Origin: Oscillospiraceae bacterium
Lineage (GTDB): Bacteria > Bacillota_A > Clostridia > Oscillospirales > JAAYXM01
Direction: 5' to 3'
Length of the DNA: 16,276 nucleotides
Assembly: GCA_017408185.1 (NCBI GenBank)
Contig: JAFQVE010000128.1
Span: forward strand, 1-16,276
Shown: in pieces, positions 2,955 through 10,538 of the stretch
How the letters are laid out: each line of letters begins with the position of its first letter
How positions within the stretch are numbered: position 1 is the stretch's first letter
Position numbers and translations under genes: made by a program
Notes under the pieces: model-generated
Database searches by the model: none
What the model was told of the DNA's origin: nothing
Seen by the model: the letters and a program-made list of their open reading frames with translations, nothing else

Positions 2955-3923
2955 TTGAACATATCTGAAATTTTTAAAAACCGCCCGCTCGCCCTTGCTC
3001 CCATGGCAGGCGTTACGGATGCGGCGTTCCGCTCCGTTTGCCGTGATTGCGGTGCGGATATCACTTATACGGAAATGGTTTCCTCCCGTGCGCTTGTCTA
3101 TCAGGACAGCAAAACAGCCTCGCTTCTTATCCGAAACGAGGGAGAAAGCCCTTTCGGCGTTCAGCTTTTCGGCAACGACCCGCGCGTTATGCGCGAGGCG
3201 GCGGAGATTGCGCACGAGCGCACCGGTTGTGACTTTATAGACATAAATATGGGATGCCCTACTCCCAAAATCGTAAATAACGGTGACGGCTCGGCACTTA
3301 TGAAAAACCCCGCTCTTGCCGCGGAAATCGTGCGCGAAATAAAGCGCGGGGTAAACATCCCTGTAACGGTAAAATTCCGCAAGGGCTGGGATGGCGGAAG
3401 CGTAAACGCCGTGGAGTTTGCAAAGTCTCTTGAGGACGCGGGTGCCGATGCTCTTGCCGTTCACGGAAGAACGCGCGTAGCAATGTATTCCGGCCGCGCA
3501 GACTGGGATATCATCCGCGAGGTTGTGTCTGCCGTCAGCATTCCCGTTCTTGCAAACGGAGATGTTTTTGAGGGCGCTGATGCCGCAAAAATCCTGCGTT
3601 GGACAGGCGCGGCAGGCGTTATGGTGGGAAGAGCAGCGTTTGGCTGCCCGTGGATATTCTCGCAATGCCGTGCGGCAATTGACGGAAAAGATATCCCGCC
3701 CCTCCCCCCTCTCGCAGAGCGTCTTGATGTAGCGGAAGCCCAGATACGCAAAAGCGCGGAAAACACCTGCGAAAGAGTTGCCGCACTTGAAGCGCGACGG
3801 CATATAGCGTGGTATCTTCGCGGTGTTCGCGGCGCAAATTCATATAAAACGCGCGTGGTAAGCATCTCAACTCTTGATGAACTCCACCGCCTGCTCGAAG
3901 AGATAAAGCATACTTTGGGATAA
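2955..3923 (+). CDS. dusB: tRNA-dihydrouridine synthase DusB
   Basis: This FMN-dependent enzyme reduces uridine to dihydrouridine in the D-loop of tRNA using NAD(P)H. The 322 residues have the full family pattern: LAPMAGVTDAAFR at 14-26, INMGCPTPKI with the catalytic cysteine C101, VKFRKGWD near 139, HGRTR at 170-174 (FMN/phosphate side), IPVLANGDV at 196-204 and GVMVGRAAFG at 221-230. The C-terminal helical tRNA-binding part includes ARRHIAWYLRG (280-290), as in DusB. The start is TTG at 2955 with GGAGG eight bases upstream; no other in-frame start fits. It is transcribed alone, away from the phosphatase gene and towards the sugar operon. Confidence 0.93.
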   Translation: MNISEIFKNRPLALAPMAGVTDAAFRSVCRDCGADITYTEMVSSRALVYQDSKTASLLIRNEGESPFGVQLFGNDPRVMREAAEIAHERTGCDFIDINMGCPTPKIVNNGDGSALMKNPALAAEIVREIKRGVNIPVTVKFRKGWDGGSVNAVEFAKSLEDAGADALAVHGRTRVAMYSGRADWDIIREVVSAVSIPVLANGDVFEGADAAKILRWTGAAGVMVGRAAFGCPWIFSQCRAAIDGKDIPPLPPLAERLDVAEAQIRKSAENTCERVAALEARRHIAWYLRGVRGANSYKTRVVSISTLDELHRLLEEIKHTLG

Positions 3924-3964
3924 ACATAGCAGAACCGCGGCGATTGCCGCGGTTCTGCTATGTT
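3923..3964. terminator. Bidirectional hairpin between convergent dusB and the sugar operon
   Basis: Arms 3923-3941 (AACATAGCAGAACCGCGGC) and 3946-3964 pair perfectly over 19 bp around the loop GATT. The last base of the dusB stop codon and the first two positions of the opposing gene's stop (TAA on minus, 3963-3965) lie within the stem, so the hairpin fills the whole 39-base gap. Neither side has a clear T tract after the stem, so it may act as a terminator in both directions or as a 3'-end stabiliser. Confidence 0.7.
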
Positions 3965-5447
3965 AAAACATCTTGTTTATTTCTTCAACTGTCTTGCGTA
4001 CAAGCATCTCGCCGCCGACATGGCCGACTGTACCGCTGGAAACATATGCGCTGTAATGGCTTCCCTTTTCTGCCTTTTCGGTCGGCAGATAGCCGTCACT
4101 TCCGCAACAGAGCTGAACGATAAACGTCTGCGAAGCATGGGAAAGCGCGCGAATCTGATTGCCGAAATCGAGGAAGAGCTCATACGGGTTTGTTGCAAAA
4201 ACAACATCACCGATACGGACGATATGTACTTCAACCGTGCGGATATTATGATCCTGTTGATATTCATATCTCCCAAGAGTTCCTGCATGAACGTGCATTG
4301 CCGCAGTGTCCATATAATTGATGTCGCCTGTATGCTCCTTGAAAAACTCACGGATTGCGCGCGCTGCCGCATCACGCTCTGCCGGAGTTACGCGGCGAAG
4401 CGGAAGCTCAAGAGTAAGTTTTTTATGAACAAGCGGGCCCTCTGAGGTCTTTTCCGTAATTTCCTCAAACACATCGGAAATCTCATTCACAACGCGCTTG
4501 CCTATCTTCCACGTTCCCTTGATGTCATACATTGACGGGTCCGCACGGCGCACGGTTACGTTTTCACGGATAACGTTCGGGTCGGCAATCGGGGTTTCCG
4601 GATCCACCCAGCGGATAAGGTCACGCGGGCACTGGTCGCCTCCTGCACCGCCAAGACCGAGAACCTTGATGTCCTCGCCGTATTTCTCGCGGAGAAGAAT
4701 CTTCACCTTGCCCCAATAGTCGGAGGAAACATAGCTTCTCTGCTCAACAACCTGCGACGGGCAGGCAATATTTGCAACAACGCCCGTGAGCTTGTCGTTC
4801 TCGTCAAAGGTATAGAGAAGCTCAATGCCGTTATCGTTGCCACCTTCAAGATGCGTGAAATTTACGGTGTTCGTATCGCCCCACATTTTTGCACTGCCGT
4901 CGTCATAGCATACGCGACGGCACATTCCGACAGCCGCACGGCCAAACTCGTTTGCAAAAGATGCGGGTTTTAAGTTCTTATATGCCTCAATGCACGCCTC
5001 TGCGACTTTGCCCGGAAGGAATTCTGCCGCCTCAATGGGTGACATAACATCGTCCGTAAGCGGAACACGGTCTATGTACTTCACTCCCTCGGGCATATAT
5101 GCCTTTAGCGTTCCAAGCGTGTCGCCCACGGTCCTGTCACTTCGTCCGGCATATGAATACGAGGTGTGAGTATGGGTTGCAGCTACGATAATCGCATCTG
5201 TGTTTATTTCAGGGCATTTTTCCGAAACAATATCTCTGACATCTTTCATAAGGCTGCTGCTGACAGAAACAAGGTCTGCAGAGCAGAAGATAACATGCTC
5301 TTCTCCTGTAGCTATTGCCATTGCGGTAACGCTGAGCGGAGTTTCAACATACTCTGAAACGCGCTCATAAAACTGTCCTGCAAGACTTATCTTTTTATCC
5401 GGAGTTATATCAACTTCCGACCATCCGATTAAATATTTGTTCGACAT
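3963..5447 (-). CDS. Neutral/alkaline ceramidase-like hydrolase, last gene of the sugar operon
   Basis: The 494 residues resemble the neutral/alkaline ceramidase family, zinc amidases: GWSEVDITP at 8-16, CSADLVSVS at 55-63, ATHTHTS at 90-96 (zinc histidines), SSDYWGK at 241-247, GGAGGDQCPRD at 266-276, NPYELF with E423 and SDGYLPTEKA with Y453. Known bacterial ceramidases are secreted with a catalytic serine in GDxSPN and a second zinc histidine. Here there is no signal peptide, the serine position appears to be C273 and the histidine position C229 (ACPSQ). The protein is therefore probably a cytoplasmic hydrolase of another amide or ester. RBS AAGAAGGA lies before ATG 5447, 21 bases after the previous gene. 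Family placement is fairly sure; the substrate is unknown. Confidence 0.72.
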   Translation of the reverse strand: MSNKYLIGWSEVDITPDKKISLAGQFYERVSEYVETPLSVTAMAIATGEEHVIFCSADLVSVSSSLMKDVRDIVSEKCPEINTDAIIVAATHTHTSYSYAGRSDRTVGDTLGTLKAYMPEGVKYIDRVPLTDDVMSPIEAAEFLPGKVAEACIEAYKNLKPASFANEFGRAAVGMCRRVCYDDGSAKMWGDTNTVNFTHLEGGNDNGIELLYTFDENDKLTGVVANIACPSQVVEQRSYVSSDYWGKVKILLREKYGEDIKVLGLGGAGGDQCPRDLIRWVDPETPIADPNVIRENVTVRRADPSMYDIKGTWKIGKRVVNEISDVFEEITEKTSEGPLVHKKLTLELPLRRVTPAERDAAARAIREFFKEHTGDINYMDTAAMHVHAGTLGRYEYQQDHNIRTVEVHIVRIGDVVFATNPYELFLDFGNQIRALSHASQTFIVQLCCGSDGYLPTEKAEKGSHYSAYVSSGTVGHVGGEMLVRKTVEEINKMF

Positions 5448-5468
5448 ATTAAATCATCCTTCTTTCAA

Positions 5469-6818
5469 TTATTCGCTTATCTTATATTCTGCAATGAACT
5501 TCTCCTCATCTGCCGGCTGCACTCTGAAAAGAACCGCATCGCCCGGAGCGAGAGAAACGCTTATTTTATCCGCGTTTTCGCCGGCAAGCCCTTGCTTGCC
5601 GTCCTCACGGCTTACCTCATATATATTGAAGCTACCCGAGAGCGGAATATCCGCACAAAGCTCTTTTTCAAAATCACGGTTTAAAACAAACAGGTAATCA
5701 TTGCCGTAATCATCGCAAAGCTCACCGACAGAGGTGCGCCTCGGGAGATTGCCGGAGAGGATTTTGCTGTCTGCGATATTATCCTCAAAATCCTTATAAA
5801 TTTCGCCGTATTTGCCGTAAACCTTAACATCACTGCTGTGGTATACCGCACGGTTTGAAAGAGCGAGAAGTGTGTTTCCGAGCATTTTAAATTCCTCGTG
5901 GATTTTCTTCTGCTCATCAAAGAAATCACCCTTTGTGCCATCTGCAATAAGAACGGTCCTCTCTGTAGGATAAGGTGTCTCCGGATGAAGACCGTAACAC
6001 GTTCCCGTAACGGTATAATTCTGCAGTCCCTTTGCGCCGTAAAGCGCCCCGGCATACATCATCATACGCACCATCGGGAATGTGATTTTAACGTCCGTCT
6101 TATAAACATGGCAGGACTGGTAATAGAACCAGAACGGCAGATTGTATTTCCGCGCAAGGTTTCTTGCAACTGCAAGGTCAAGCCACATCGGCGAATCGTC
6201 AAGCTGCATTTCCTCGGTATATTCAAGCCCGGGATAAAGCCCGCAATAATTGCCGATAGGGTAATAGTCCATCGACAGAACCGGCGGCTCAAGCTCTTTT
6301 ATGTACTGCTCAAACGCATCGTAATACTTTCCGTTATCCCACGTCGGTCCGGGGTTATAGCTCGGCGGGAAAACCGAGAACATAAGAGCATCCGGATTCT
6401 CCTTCAGAATTATATCGCTCTGGCGTCTTGCCTCGCGGAAGAGATAATCATACACAGGCTCATCCCAGACGTAAAAGCCGACGGTGTGCTTCTTTTCCTT
6501 AAGCTTTCTTACAGTTTCACGGATAACATTGTCGTCAACCGGTCGGTCGTCATGCTTATACATCATACCGCTGAAAAGAGACAAATCCTGAAAGATAAGG
6601 TCAATGCCGTGCTTTTCACAGGCTTCCACCGTCTCCCAAACCTTTTCGTGGCTTCCCCAGCCAACCTCAAGAAGGTTAAAGCCCGCTTCTTTACAGTTTT
6701 TGATTGTCATATCGGTATCTTTGCCGATACAGTTGAAGGTTGAGAGCGCAAATTCGCGCTGTTTCCATCGAAAACGCGGATTTCCGAGCGGTTTTCTCTC
6801 ATATATTACGCTCTTCAT
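5469..6818 (-). CDS. Cytoplasmic glycoside-hydrolase-like TIM-barrel protein
   Basis: This 449-residue protein has no signal peptide. Residues about 20-330 look like a (beta/alpha)8 barrel of the glycoside hydrolase type: FNLLEVGWG (47-55), GIDLIFQDLS (71-80), VGFYVWDEP (113-121) with E120 at the usual acid/base place at the end of strand 4, VLSMDYYPIG (180-189), LPFWFYYQSC (227-236) and YGAKGLQNYTV (260-270). Residues 330-449 form a beta-rich tail ending LAPGDAVLFRV, as in many retaining glycosidases. The strand-7 position where a nucleophile Glu would sit seems to hold Q266, so catalysis is uncertain. ATG 6818 is four bases after the isomerase stop, with GAGG inside the isomerase end, so translation is probably coupled. 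The exact GH family was not recognised. Confidence 0.6.
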   Translation of the reverse strand: MKSVIYERKPLGNPRFRWKQREFALSTFNCIGKDTDMTIKNCKEAGFNLLEVGWGSHEKVWETVEACEKHGIDLIFQDLSLFSGMMYKHDDRPVDDNVIRETVRKLKEKKHTVGFYVWDEPVYDYLFREARRQSDIILKENPDALMFSVFPPSYNPGPTWDNGKYYDAFEQYIKELEPPVLSMDYYPIGNYCGLYPGLEYTEEMQLDDSPMWLDLAVARNLARKYNLPFWFYYQSCHVYKTDVKITFPMVRMMMYAGALYGAKGLQNYTVTGTCYGLHPETPYPTERTVLIADGTKGDFFDEQKKIHEEFKMLGNTLLALSNRAVYHSSDVKVYGKYGEIYKDFEDNIADSKILSGNLPRRTSVGELCDDYGNDYLFVLNRDFEKELCADIPLSGSFNIYEVSREDGKQGLAGENADKISVSLAPGDAVLFRVQPADEEKFIAEYKISE

Positions 6819-6822
6819 AATC

Positions 6823-8169
6823 TTAAATTACCTCAATTCCGAGAATGTCGCAAAGGTCGCGGATGGCCGCTGTGTTATCACCGTAAGAGATAATATAGTG
6901 CTGACACATCACGTTGTTTGTGAACTTCTCAACATCCGGAAGGATAATCTCAAGTCCCGGAAGCTGCGGTGCAGGCTGTGTCCAGCCGCATTCCTCCCAC
7001 TTGCGCGGAGTTACGCCCTCTCCCGTTACCATATGCATATAGTATTTTCCGTTTGTATATACAAGACGGCACATTGTAAGCTCGCCTGTTTTTACCTTGG
7101 AAACGTTGAGTATTCCCTCGCTCAGCTCGCCGAATGCAGCCGGCATAACTGTTGTCTCACCGTCCGTGATCTCAGCCGGAACATAGTCCGGAACACCTGC
7201 AAGAACGCGGTCTGTGAAGAACTCATAGAACTCAAGATACGCGCCGCACTGACCGGTAAGAAGCTTTACCATTGTCTGTGTAACGTTGCCGAGGCTGTCG
7301 TTTTCCGGAATTGTGGAAACGCCGAGAACATCGGAAAGAAGCATAAATATCGGTGCAGGCGGGAAGCCCAAGAGCTTCTTCATTCCGTCAACATCCTTCA
7401 AGGAAATTGCAAGGTATCCGCGCTCCTTTATAAGAGACGCGATTGCGAGGAAATATCCTGCCGCCATCATCTTGCCTTCCTGCTTTGCCGGCTTTAAGAA
7501 GTTCCACTTGGACATATATTTGTCGATAACCTCCTGCTTTTCGGCATCGGTCACCTTCTGATAGCGCTGGAAAATCTCAAGCATTTCAAATGTCTCAATC
7601 TCAACACCTACACGGTTTTTAAGAGATGCTCCGTCATGCAGAGTGCCGTAAAGGTTCATATCGCGGTATCCCGCATGGCCTATCTTTACGCTGCGCAGTG
7701 CCTTTGCCGCGCTCGCCGCCTTTACATATGTTGCAACCTTGTCTGTGCGTGACGGAAGTCCGATAATATCATAAACATATTTAAAGGTATATCCAAGGTC
7801 ATAGAATGTCTTGCGGAGTGCGCTTGTGCCCGCCTGGTCAGCGGTCGTGACAAGCCGCTCTCCCTCCATCCAGCCGCAAAGTCCCCAGAGCACCATCGGA
7901 AGATGGCGGTACTGCTCGGTGATTTTTACAACCGCATGGCTCGGAATCCAGCCTGCAATACAGACAACCATTGCGTCAAAATCGTTGCCCGAAAGCTTTC
8001 CGAGAGCTTCCTTTATATCGTTTTCCTCATAATCGTCCGTTACCGGATAAACGGAAACAAGATCAAGTCCGCGCTCAAGGAGTCCTTTTTCTGCCTCCGC
8101 GCATTTTTTAATAATAACGTCCTTCGGTGTGTTGACCTCACCAAAGCCTACAAAAGCTATTTTTCCCAT
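6823..8169 (-). CDS. L-fucose/L-arabinose isomerase-family protein
   Basis: The 448 residues match the short branch of the L-fucose/L-arabinose isomerase family, Mn-dependent enzymes that interconvert aldoses and ketoses. ENDSLGNVTQTMVKLLTG at 289-306 closely follows the active-site segment of E. coli FucI (ENDSLNGVAM...LTG). By that alignment the metal ligands are E289, E313 (Asp in FucI, same 24-residue spacing) and H424 in CQHYIISYGD. The N-terminal half (1-170) has the Rossmann-like segments of the family (KIAFVGFG; AMVVCIAGWIPSHAV). FucI itself is near 590 residues, so the substrate need not be fucose. It overlaps the kinase gene end by 13 bases; GGAGGA lies ten bases before ATG 8169. 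It probably makes the ketose that the neighbouring kinase phosphorylates. Confidence 0.8.
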   Translation of the reverse strand: MGKIAFVGFGEVNTPKDVIIKKCAEAEKGLLERGLDLVSVYPVTDDYEENDIKEALGKLSGNDFDAMVVCIAGWIPSHAVVKITEQYRHLPMVLWGLCGWMEGERLVTTADQAGTSALRKTFYDLGYTFKYVYDIIGLPSRTDKVATYVKAASAAKALRSVKIGHAGYRDMNLYGTLHDGASLKNRVGVEIETFEMLEIFQRYQKVTDAEKQEVIDKYMSKWNFLKPAKQEGKMMAAGYFLAIASLIKERGYLAISLKDVDGMKKLLGFPPAPIFMLLSDVLGVSTIPENDSLGNVTQTMVKLLTGQCGAYLEFYEFFTDRVLAGVPDYVPAEITDGETTVMPAAFGELSEGILNVSKVKTGELTMCRLVYTNGKYYMHMVTGEGVTPRKWEECGWTQPAPQLPGLEIILPDVEKFTNNVMCQHYIISYGDNTAAIRDLCDILGIEVI

Positions 8170-9566
8170 AACATTTTTTCCTCCGCTTCACAGAAATTTT
8201 TATATACATCGGTGTAATCCGCACCGCCGGGTACATATGTTTTGTCGGTTTCCACAATTGCGTCTGCCGCAGATACCACGCTGTCAAAAATGCCCGCGGC
8301 AACACCTGCAAGTATTGCGCTTCCGAGGCATGCGCTCTCTGCATTTTTGAGCGTTGTTATCTTTCTTCCTGTCATATCCGCCTTGATCTGACACCACAGC
8401 GGGCTTGATGCACCGCCGCCTGTCGAGCGGATTTCCGGAGCTTCTATATTCATATATTCAAGATTGCTTTTTAGCATACACGCCACCGCTTCTAAAATCG
8501 CGCGTATCATATGTGCTCTCGTATGCGAAAGCGTAAGTCCTAAAAATGCACCTTTTGCCGTGGGGGAATACTTCGGCATAGTTGACCCGCAGAGGTACGG
8601 GAGAAACGTAAGCCCCTCTGCTCCTATTCCCGCTTCCTCCGCGAGAACATCCATTTCCTTAAAGCTTAAATCCGCGCAGAAGCCGTTTTTAAACCACTTA
8701 AGCGCAAGGCCCGCAGCAGGAGTCCACGAAAGGAGTGCGTATTTTCCGTCATAATTCACATGGCAAGGAATTATGCTTTCGGGATTGTATTCCGGTATCT
8801 CATCGCACGGAACAAACATCGCCATTGTTGTGCCCGTCATCTCTGAAATAACGCTCTTTGACGTAACGCCCGCGCCTATCGCTCCGGCTATCTGGTCAAT
8901 TGCGCTTGTTGCAACCTTAATTCCGTTATATTCGCCGACAAGCTCGGCACTGCCTAAAATTTCCGGAAGCTGTTTGCGTGAGATTCCGATGAACGAAAGC
9001 ATCTCATCCCACCAATCTCCGCATCTTATGTCAAAATAAAGGCTTGACGACTGAAGCGTCTTTTCTGTCACAAAACGCCCTGTAAGCTTAAACAAAATGT
9101 AATCCTCAAGAAGAAAAATACGTTTTGTGTTCGAAAATACCTCCGGCAAATTCTTTTTTACCCATAAAAGCTTCGCCGCAGGCCACGTCGCACAAATCTC
9201 CGGCTGACCGGTTACTTCGTAAACGAGCTTCTTTCCGAATTTTTCCTCTATCTCACGCGCCTCGGCCTCGGCGCGGTTATCAAGCCAGACGATAGCGTTC
9301 GTAAGCGGCGCACCGCCCTCATCGGTAAGAATAAGAGTTTCACACTGTGTATCAACCGAGATCGCGGAAATCTCAATACCGCGGCTGACCTCAGTAAATG
9401 CATCGGAGAACATTTCCCAGTAACCCTCTGCCGGAAACTCAACGCGCTCTCCTTCCGTAATAAGCGTGTAATCTCGTGAGGCAGAGGAAATAAGCTTTCC
9501 TTTCTCATCAAAAACAGCAATTTTCAGCGAGGTTGTTCCTATATCTGCACCTGCAACATATTTCAT
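8157..9566 (-). CDS. FGGY-family sugar kinase (xylulokinase-like)
   Basis: This ATP-dependent kinase of sugars or polyols has 469 residues, normal for the family. Visible motifs are GADIGTTSLKIAVFD (6-20, phosphate 1), AIVWLDNRA (91-99), SAIDQIAGAIGAG (221-233) with the likely general base D224, STGGGASSPLWCQI (381-394, FGGY signature 2 and adenosine site) and ACLGSAILAGVA (412-423). I chose ATG 9566 because the protein begins there at MKYVAGADIG and GAGAGGGA sits about nine bases upstream; a longer frame to 9626 would overlap deoR and has no ribosome site. That ribosome site is inside a perfect hairpin. Operon context suggests a ketose such as L-fuculose, D-ribulose or xylulose as substrate; the specificity is inference. 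Confidence 0.88.
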   Translation of the reverse strand: MKYVAGADIGTTSLKIAVFDEKGKLISSASRDYTLITEGERVEFPAEGYWEMFSDAFTEVSRGIEISAISVDTQCETLILTDEGGAPLTNAIVWLDNRAEAEAREIEEKFGKKLVYEVTGQPEICATWPAAKLLWVKKNLPEVFSNTKRIFLLEDYILFKLTGRFVTEKTLQSSSLYFDIRCGDWWDEMLSFIGISRKQLPEILGSAELVGEYNGIKVATSAIDQIAGAIGAGVTSKSVISEMTGTTMAMFVPCDEIPEYNPESIIPCHVNYDGKYALLSWTPAAGLALKWFKNGFCADLSFKEMDVLAEEAGIGAEGLTFLPYLCGSTMPKYSPTAKGAFLGLTLSHTRAHMIRAILEAVACMLKSNLEYMNIEAPEIRSTGGGASSPLWCQIKADMTGRKITTLKNAESACLGSAILAGVAAGIFDSVVSAADAIVETDKTYVPGGADYTDVYKNFCEAEEKMLWEK

Positions 9567-9574
9567 ATTAAAAT

Positions 9575-9605
9575 ATCCCTCTCTTTCAACGCGAAAGAGA
9601 GGGAT
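9575..9605 (-). promoter_or_regulatory. Hairpin covering the kinase ribosome binding site
   Basis: Arms ATCCCTCTCTTTC (9575-9587) and GAAAGAGAGGGAT (9593-9605) pair perfectly over 13 bp with a five-base loop. It lies between the deoR stop (9616-9618) and the kinase start (9566). In the minus-strand transcript one arm contains the kinase Shine-Dalgarno GAGAGGGA, which would be paired. The bases after it (ATTTTAAT) are only a weak U tract, so RBS occlusion, attenuation or an RNA-processing site are all possible. Confidence 0.75.
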
Positions 9606-9615
9606 TCTGACATTT

Positions 9616-10374
9616 TCACACCTCAATAAGCTTTGTATACTTTTTTAAGCTTTTCTTTTCCTCTTCTGCCGCGTTTTTATTTGTTATTATGTAGTCCGCG
9701 ACACCGATATCCGAAATTTTTGCAAAGGTTGTTCTTCCTATTTTGGTGTAGTCGGCAGCAACGATACACGTTGACGAATTTTCAATCATCAACCGATCAA
9801 GCTCTGCTTCCTTATCGTAATACGTCGTAAAGCCGTTTTCGATATCCGCACCGTCCACCGAAAGCACAAGCTTGTCGGCGTGATAGCGGCGAATCTGCTC
9901 GTTTGCATCGCTTCCGCAGGAAAACTGATACTTGGCATTTATATCACCGCCGAGAAGAACAACATTGAAATTAGGGTTTGCCCCCGCCTCAAGCGCAATT
10001 GCGATTGAGTTGGTGACGATACTTAAATTCAAAGAGGGACGAAGCTGACGGAACGTCAGAAGCGTCGTCGTTCCGGAATTAAACATCACCGTGTCGTGGT
10101 CTTCTATCATAGCTGCGGCGGCACCGGCAATCGCAACCTTTTTCTCGTGGTTGGTTCCCAGACGCTGCTGCAGGCTCATATTGTAATACGTTTTATACGA
10201 GCTCATGGCACCGCCGTGAACACGCGATAAAAGCCCGCGCTCTTCAAGGTCTGCAAGATCCATACGCACTGTAACCTCTGAAACGCCGAACAGCTCTGCA
10301 AGCTCGGTAACGCGCACCTTTCCGTTTGCCGCCAAAAGCTCTATTATCTTATCTTTTCTGCTGTCAATATCCAC
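9616..10374 (-). CDS. DeoR-family transcriptional regulator of the sugar operon
   Basis: This 252-residue protein has the standard DeoR/GlpR layout. An N-terminal winged helix (1-57) has the recognition segment SEVTVRMDLADLEERG (32-47) and closes with RVHGGA. A DeoRC sugar-phosphate sensor domain follows, with NSGTTT (99-104), VTNS (120-123), LGGD (141-144), SVDGAD (172-177) and TTYYDKEAE (183-191). The start is GTG at 10374 behind GGAGAGGA; no ATG fits better. It is the first gene of the operon and lies ten bases before the hairpin that precedes the kinase. Family members usually repress their own operon and let go when a phosphorylated sugar binds, so the kinase product is the likely signal (inference). 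Confidence 0.9.
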   Translation of the reverse strand: MDIDSRKDKIIELLAANGKVRVTELAELFGVSEVTVRMDLADLEERGLLSRVHGGAMSSYKTYYNMSLQQRLGTNHEKKVAIAGAAAAMIEDHDTVMFNSGTTTLLTFRQLRPSLNLSIVTNSIAIALEAGANPNFNVVLLGGDINAKYQFSCGSDANEQIRRYHADKLVLSVDGADIENGFTTYYDKEAELDRLMIENSSTCIVAADYTKIGRTTFAKISDIGVADYIITNKNAAEEEKKSLKKYTKLIEV

Positions 10375-10447: not shown

Positions 10448-10463
10448 ATTTTCCTCCTCTTCT

Positions 10464-10493
10464 TTTCGTTTCACTTTCTTTTTGCTTTCGTTT
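10464..10493. promoter_or_regulatory. Three TTTC direct repeats with 11-bp phasing, probable DeoR operator
   Basis: TTTCGTTT occurs at 10464-10471 and 10486-10493, and TTTCTTTT starts at 10475, so TTTC recurs at steps of exactly 11 bp on one face of the helix. The block sits just downstream of the start point predicted for the distal deoR promoter and upstream of the proximal one. From memory, some DeoR-family regulators such as AgaR bind T-rich TTTCRTTT direct repeats. Binding here is inference. Confidence 0.45.
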
Positions 10494-10509
10494 TTTTACT
10501 TTAGTTTTA

Positions 10510-10538
10510 ATTATAAATATTTTACCGTGACTTGTCAA
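10510..10538 (-). promoter_or_regulatory. Perfect consensus sigma-A promoter reading into deoR
   Basis: On the minus strand TTGACA (10533-10538) and TATAAT (10510-10515) match both consensus hexamers exactly with the optimal 17-base spacer. The transcript would have a leader of about 125 bases before the deoR GTG, containing the TTTC repeats and the proximal promoter. Confidence 0.75.

Follow-up and report, generated by a model that had tools for sequence, protein, structure and literature searches.

A DeoR-controlled operon of Clostridia that may break down small sugar conjugates by way of a ceramidase-fold protein, an isomerase and a kinase

What are two proteins with hydrolase folds doing in an operon with a sugar isomerase and a sugar kinase, and do both belong to one pathway? 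The question is raised by contig JAFQVE010000128.1 of an Oscillospiraceae bacterium (assembly GCA_017408185.1), analysed here as a stretch of 16,276 nucleotides that is referred to as the window. Between positions 3963 and 10374 it carries five open minus-strand genes, which encode a DeoR-family regulator (DeoR), an FGGY sugar kinase (KIN), an aldose-ketose isomerase of the FucI/AraA superfamily (ISO), a glycoside hydrolase (GH)-like barrel (GHL) and a ceramidase-fold protein (CER). On the answer preferred here, to which we assign a probability of about 0.55, the genes form an operon under DeoR control that serves to break down small sugar conjugates: CER frees an aldose, and ISO and KIN feed a phosphosugar module. 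CER would hydrolyse an imported conjugate in the cytoplasm, ISO would convert the freed aldose to a 2-ketose and KIN would phosphorylate the ketose. The phosphosugar would then be rearranged by a SIS-type isomerase (SIS), a TIM homologue and YjbQ for entry into glycolysis or the pentose-phosphate pathway, and would be cleaved where a fructose-6-phosphate aldolase (FSA) is present. GHL may have been added at the level of the genus, to widen the range of substrates or to prepare them.

The basis for this reading is that CER, ISO and KIN form a recurrent co-occurring set, with CER a genuine partner of ISO. In a sample of 245 genomes of the class, CER was called with the A2 profile at E <= 1e-30 and ISO at E <= 1e-140, weak ISO matches being left out (G361 and G412 here, G012 in the sample of the order). 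CER is found in 21 of these genomes, ISO in 19 and both in 17 (17 of 21 for ISO when two weak matches are included), with ISO lacking CER in G314 and G500; among 295 genomes of the order the corresponding numbers are 26, 23 and 21. Linkage was counted within 10 kb in stretches around ISO from 40 genomes, where KIN is present at 31 loci, CER at 27 and DeoR at 17. The nearest CER lies on the same strand as ISO in all 27 cases, several of these CERs being distant, at 28-35% identity to that of the window. This bears out the original prediction, made from the window alone, that a usual aldose-catabolic set of DeoR regulator, kinase and isomerase travels with a ceramidase-like gene: CER is at 27 of the 40 ISO loci and ISO in 17 of the 21 CER genomes. 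Chance does not account for the KIN-ISO-CER linkage, which is seen again in other families and also outside the order. Pairwise distances also agree between the three proteins, with r values of 0.92 for ISO and KIN (n = 31), 0.56 for ISO and CER (n = 28) and 0.60 for KIN and CER (n = 21), values that were reached by none, one and one of 2000 permutations, respectively. The lower ISO-CER value perhaps arises because some loci have just a distant CER paralogue nearby.

The families concerned are large. At E <= 0.001 there are at least 3261 relatives of CER and at least 4041 of ISO (from 7999 candidates scored), and the few source names for them are almost all 'hypothetical protein'. ISO itself falls just below the cut-offs of both its Pfam families, with 28.3 bits against 29.3 for PF02952 and 22.1 against 24 for AraA_central, and PF02952 is annotated for each of its 21 best-listed relatives. 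A search of viral contigs with ISO peptide patterns returned no ISO relative.

What sort of protein is CER? Structure prediction and structure comparison give it, among the matches listed, the overall fold of a neutral ceramidase, and give the barrel of GHL, again among the matches listed, a GH42-like fold, so that the folds first proposed for the two hydrolases are both supported. The resemblance is remote in sequence, with CER scoring 21.4 bits against PF04734, below the cut-off of 32.1 and over residues 5-96 only. Neutral ceramidases (PF04734; 2zws, 4wgk) have 630-670 residues, whereas CER has 494, and neither CER nor GHL has a signal peptide evident by eye, no predictor having been run. 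The zinc ligands of neutral ceramidase, which we take to be two His, a Glu and a Tyr, were located by alignment of CER paralogues, not from a confident model; in this alignment His92/94, Glu423 and Tyr453 of CER are kept, and a His at position 230 is kept in the paralogues L127_628 and L131_16974. CER genes can also be multiplied, with three to five tandem paralogues in loci L080 and L081 and on contig C157 of genome G261. The copies beside KIN-ISO (four in L080, three in L081) are 28-34% identical to that of the window, and such arrays are as expected if one sugar is carried on several partners. Elsewhere, in L125 and L132, CER adjoins GH38-family proteins, with no ISO in either stretch, and in L125 an FAD-dependent oxidoreductase is encoded one gene beyond the GH38-family protein.

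The lower part of the proposed pathway comes from the relatives and not from the window, whose operon is without SIS, TIM homologue, YjbQ and FSA. Within 10 kb of ISO, a TIM homologue is found at 20 of the 40 loci, SIS and YjbQ at 19 each and an FSA-type aldolase at 8, together with major facilitator superfamily (MFS) transporters of two kinds at 6 and 4; Pfam was applied to a selection of the neighbouring genes, and the remainder carry a label where BLAST matched them to window or cluster proteins and otherwise none. YjbQ is present in 17 of the 19 ISO genomes, compared with 34 of 245 overall. Fuller clusters in L123 and L124 bring together DeoR, CER, ISO, FSA, TIM homologue, YjbQ, KIN and SIS, with an MFS transporter in L123. 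The L124 proteins show how closely these names fit. The small aldolase passes the fructose-6-phosphate aldolase model NF009299 (215.6 against 214) and stays below two further FSA models (219.9 against 306 and 211.3 against 245.95); the TIM homologue scores above the cut-off of an archaeal-type model (203.9 against 132); and YjbQ reaches 62.0 bits against 67.75. The SIS protein, of 199 residues, is nearest to the GutQ/KdsD arabinose-5-phosphate isomerases at 104-115 bits, under the KpsF/GutQ/KdsD cut-offs of 204-505; full enzymes of the KdsD/GutQ type also carry CBS domains.

Within the genus of the window, SIS and YjbQ occur with the TIM homologue in four of five genomes, and in three of these (G001, on contig C80, G047 and G081) the trio is on contigs other than that of ISO. 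In the fourth, G094, a short contig (L187) has KIN (63%), YjbQ, SIS, TIM homologue and CER (60%) in adjacent positions. The trio in G081 (L189) is preceded by a distant FGGY kinase, an M28 peptidase-like protein, a pair of ceramidase-like proteins, one member of which passes the Pfam cut-off at 38.3 bits, and an amidohydrolase. Beyond the ISO loci, in other Clostridia, 4 of 14 further YjbQ loci (L199, L200, L204 and L209) combine TIM homologue, YjbQ and SIS with relatives of an AraA-like isomerase and of an Amidohydro_2 protein, the two families having been called on L199 and L197 and extended to other loci through BLAST grouping. These parallel clusters, to which L197, L198, L201 and L208 also belong, have two YjbQ copies, mostly a distant FGGY kinase and at times FSA, and in L198 a creatininase-family protein takes the place of the hydrolase. 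The lower module therefore appears to work with different isomerase-kinase pairs, in part alongside a hydrolase from another family, of amide or ester type.

What kind of sugar might pass through such a module? In the erythritol/tetrose phosphate route a TIM-family protein, EryH, works together with an isomerase. The present set resembles that route in that an FGGY kinase is accompanied by a sugar-phosphate isomerase and a TIM homologue, although here the isomerase is of SIS type and an isomerase for the free aldose is added. KIN, the TIM homologue and SIS would all be in keeping with a route for a tetrose (erythrulose-like) or a pentose.

Several observations weigh against conjugate breakdown by this set. 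The CER model is moderately confident, with a mean pLDDT of 71.6 and values under 50 at residues 24-27, 100-108, 172-205, 231-238, 270-302 and 462-464, and the presumed second zinc His of neutral ceramidase is replaced by Pro230 in all 20 aligned CER rows; because this His is missing and CER is below the Pfam cut-off, hydrolysis is not assured. In the class sample, 4 of the 21 CER genomes (G309, G365, G396 and G520) are without ISO, and the Fisher values for co-occurrence overstate independence because the genomes are related. There is no CER in 13 of the 40 fetched ISO stretches, some of them through contig ends; the contigs of G001 break inside GHL, and G383 has its CER about 9.2 kb from ISO, beyond the counted stretch. 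No ISO was found in G094, which has the trio, KIN and CER together. Of the five same-genus genomes a single one has FSA; none was found in the other four, among them G001, which is 87% complete, and this makes the proposed exit into central metabolism less certain. Finally, the sole strong terminator-like site in the scan of the operon (9575-9605) is situated between DeoR and KIN, a result that touches the question of a single transcript and not the pathway.

The altered metal site also suggests a different role for CER. Instead of releasing the sugar it might modify it, as a lactonase, epimerase or anomerase, with release left to GHL or another enzyme. Cys229, Gln232 and Cys273 are, like Pro230, invariant in the 20 rows, which would suit such a remodelled site; we consider this distinctly unlikely. 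Judged from sequence, sugar release by either CER or GHL would be the work of a protein that departs from the active site of its fold.

Could the operon be a known pathway in disguise, serving fucose, arabinose, xylose or sulfoquinovose? It has in common with operons of the fucose/arabinose/xylose type a DeoR regulator, a FucI/AraA-superfamily isomerase and an FGGY kinase, and the best NCBIfam models are SftI (NF048012) for ISO and XylB (TIGR01312) for KIN. The scores, however, are far below the cut-offs (47.5 against 700 bits for SftI, 292.4 against 380.25 for XylB), and the selected neighbours scanned include neither aldolases nor epimerases for fuculose phosphate or ribulose phosphate. The window lacks the matching aldolase or epimerase of those operons and has a ceramidase-fold protein, to which its relatives add SIS, TIM homologue and YjbQ, none of these four being known from those pathways. 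A disguised known pathway is for these reasons very improbable. As for DeoR, its best NCBIfam model is AgaR, at 196.3 bits against a cut-off of 260. The sulfofructose transaldolase pathway (SftI, SftT) shares the isomerase superfamily, and a small TAL/FSA-type protein is found at 8 of the 40 ISO loci; it differs in that an FGGY kinase is present here and that the small aldolase of L124 fits the fructose-6-phosphate aldolase model. A sulfoquinovose reading was rejected on the SftI score and on the presence of KIN, as a kinase is unused by sulfo-SFT according to the matched passages of PMC11968277. The same passages note that DUF4867 proteins often adjoin fucose-isomerase and FGGY-kinase genes, in a set that differs from that of the window.

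Among the matches listed from the literature searched, outside which most subscription journals and preprints lie, there is no matching pathway for this gene set. Isomerase-kinase sugar operons as such are known; what sets this one apart is the proposed step by a ceramidase-fold protein, together with the module of SIS, TIM homologue and YjbQ. We put at roughly even odds that this is a new carbohydrate pathway of Clostridia: an unusual sugar, perhaps from a tetrose or pentose conjugate, would be unlocked by an enzyme of ceramidase fold whose metal site has been remodelled, and ISO and KIN would activate it. On that same even footing, SIS, TIM homologue and YjbQ would lead it to central metabolism, YjbQ acting as a genuine phosphosugar enzyme, and a GH-A barrel without its nucleophile would take part in the genus of the window. 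Were this so, thousands of uncharacterised CER and ISO relatives would join or adjoin one catabolic pathway, the ceramidase fold might gain a new reaction, and YjbQ, a widespread family named after a side activity, would gain a metabolic setting testable with a single set of enzymes.

Does GHL belong to the same pathway? The original prediction placed both hydrolases in the sugar operon and took separation of their genes from the kinase and isomerase in most genomes to count against this. CER stays with the sugar genes. GHL does not, although it lies inside the operon of the window: it is within 10 kb of ISO at 2 of the 40 ISO loci, both from the window's genus, and of the 16 GHL-bearing genomes among the 295 of the order, 10 are without ISO (ISO in 6, CER in 8). 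With the window's genus excluded, ISO accompanies GHL in 3 of 11 genomes and CER in 5 of 11. The neighbourhood comparison proposed for the two hydrolases therefore supports linkage for CER and not for GHL, and the frequent partners of ISO, namely SIS, the TIM homologue and YjbQ, are ones unseen in the window. As GHL is rarely beside ISO it is a local partner, a genus-level addition and not part of the core. Among 26 GTDB loci with GHL, window-type ISO and KIN adjoin it in L011 only, and CER adjoins it in L006 and L017.

The protein itself is unusual. GHL has no match in Pfam or NCBIfam at E <= 0.01, and hence none to Pfam GH42. With active-site positions assigned by secondary-structure order, Glu120 follows strand 4 (residues 112-119) in 25 of 25 rows, at the acid/base position of clan GH-A. 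GH42 beta-galactosidases and clan GH-A in general have a nucleophile Glu at the end of strand 7, whereas in GHL this strand (229-234) closes with Gln234 in 25 of 25 rows, and GHL is probably not an ordinary retaining glycosidase. An apiose reading was raised by the GH140 enzyme BT_1012 among the Foldseek matches and by a GH140 apiosidase at row 45 of a further listing. It is judged less likely, as GH42 rows score higher; among the literature matches listed for it, no paper mentions apulose.

These data also bear on whether CER and GHL act in series on one conjugate, GHL on a glycoside and CER on an amide or ester, or the reverse. The GHL gene is flanked by those of ISO and CER at distances of 4 and 21 bases, GHL adjoins CER without ISO in L006 (the same locus as L161) and L017, GH39-family barrels adjoin CER in L074 and L132, and half of the 16 GHL genomes have CER. 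Set against this are the confinement of GHL beside ISO to a single genus and the Gln at its nucleophile position, and we regard serial action as unlikely. The preferred reading, with CER as the releasing enzyme and GHL as an addition, is accompanied by some variation in the genus. In G047, GHL lies immediately ahead of an ISO that is truncated where the contig ends. The G081 operon has two CERs and no GHL, its GHL being elsewhere beside a short CER: L161 (8155-10090) encodes a 75% identical GHL and then a CER of about 200 residues (66%), possibly a decayed copy, with a solute-binding protein and a GH42M-like protein upstream.

How is the operon laid out and controlled? The features are collected in Table 1, where the coordinates of KIN are given from its ATG, the mechanical open reading frame beginning at TTG (9626). 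The five genes are open on the minus strand as first described, with stop-to-start gaps of 49 (DeoR-KIN), -13 (KIN-ISO), 4 (ISO-GHL) and 21 bases (GHL-CER), so that an earlier mention of gaps of a few bases was generous for the first pair. The stretch scanned for promoters has 15 promoter-like sites, against 8.7 in shuffles, and the full 12/12 match occurs at one site only. By eye, TTGACA..TATAAT is likewise upstream of the DeoR gene in the same-genus locus L061, which also has repeats resembling the candidate operator units, which may be akin to the AgaR operator.

The hairpin between DeoR and KIN, in a 70-base stretch that folds at -24.7 kcal/mol, is identical in L088 (G001) and L011 and is not found in L061; it could be a device for attenuation or translational control, or a stabilising stem. 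The hairpin at the operon end folds at -37.8 kcal/mol (z -8.96), a value equalled by none of 200 shuffles, and was not scored terminator-like because there are few T in its tail. With the first hairpin terminator-like and the second unscored, one full-length transcript is not certain, and some transcripts may stop at 9575-9605.

Table 1. Positions of the operon genes and of candidate control elements in the window.
Feature	Coordinates	Strand	Basis or remark
CER, ceramidase-fold hydrolase	3963..5447	-	predicted structure and structure comparison
GHL, GH-like barrel	5469..6818	-	E120 likely acid/base; Gln234 at nucleophile position
ISO, FucI/AraA-superfamily aldose-ketose isomerase	6823..8169	-	PF02952, AraA_central
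KIN, FGGY sugar kinase	8157..9566	-	FGGY_N (PF00370) 166.6 bits, FGGY_C (PF02782) 96.3 bits
DeoR-family regulator, GTG start	9616..10374	-	DeoRC (PF00455) 154.2 bits, HTH_DeoR (PF08220) 68.5 bits
Sigma-70-type promoter, TTGACA-17-TATAAT	10510..10538	-	12/12 consensus, upstream of DeoR
Candidate DeoR-family operator, repeated GAAAG-type units	10455..10505	-	by eye, between promoter and DeoR start
Perfect hairpin over KIN ribosome-binding site	9575..9605	-	14 pairs, T-rich tail, scored terminator-like
19-pair hairpin, candidate terminator	3923..3964	-	operon end, between CER and convergent Dus

Among the genomes compared, the nearest to the uncultured clostridial source is G001, whose operon DNA is 96-98% identical to that of the window. 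L011, from an Oscillospiraceae metagenome-assembled genome (isolate SIG480) whose title gives no host, has ISO and KIN at 100% and DeoR at 98% identity, with 98% over the first 235 residues of GHL. By title, 18 of 26 GHL-bearing records come from ruminant gut and one from chicken, and seven name no host. The window's own organism is probably of animal-gut origin, and many of the Clostridia that carry the pathway probably also come from animal guts.

The genes around the operon are ordinary, encoding a PHP phosphatase-like protein, Dus, a cyclophilin, LepA, a HemW-like protein, DUF711 and a deaminase. The 13 main window genes that were scanned include no transporter and no aldolase, as the original prediction had stated, and an Rfam scan of the window gave no match at gathering scores. 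At the far end, positions 2-1849 encode part of a large protein cut by the end of the window, with a DUF6273 domain (91.4 bits) and an N-terminus that by eye resembles a secretion signal.

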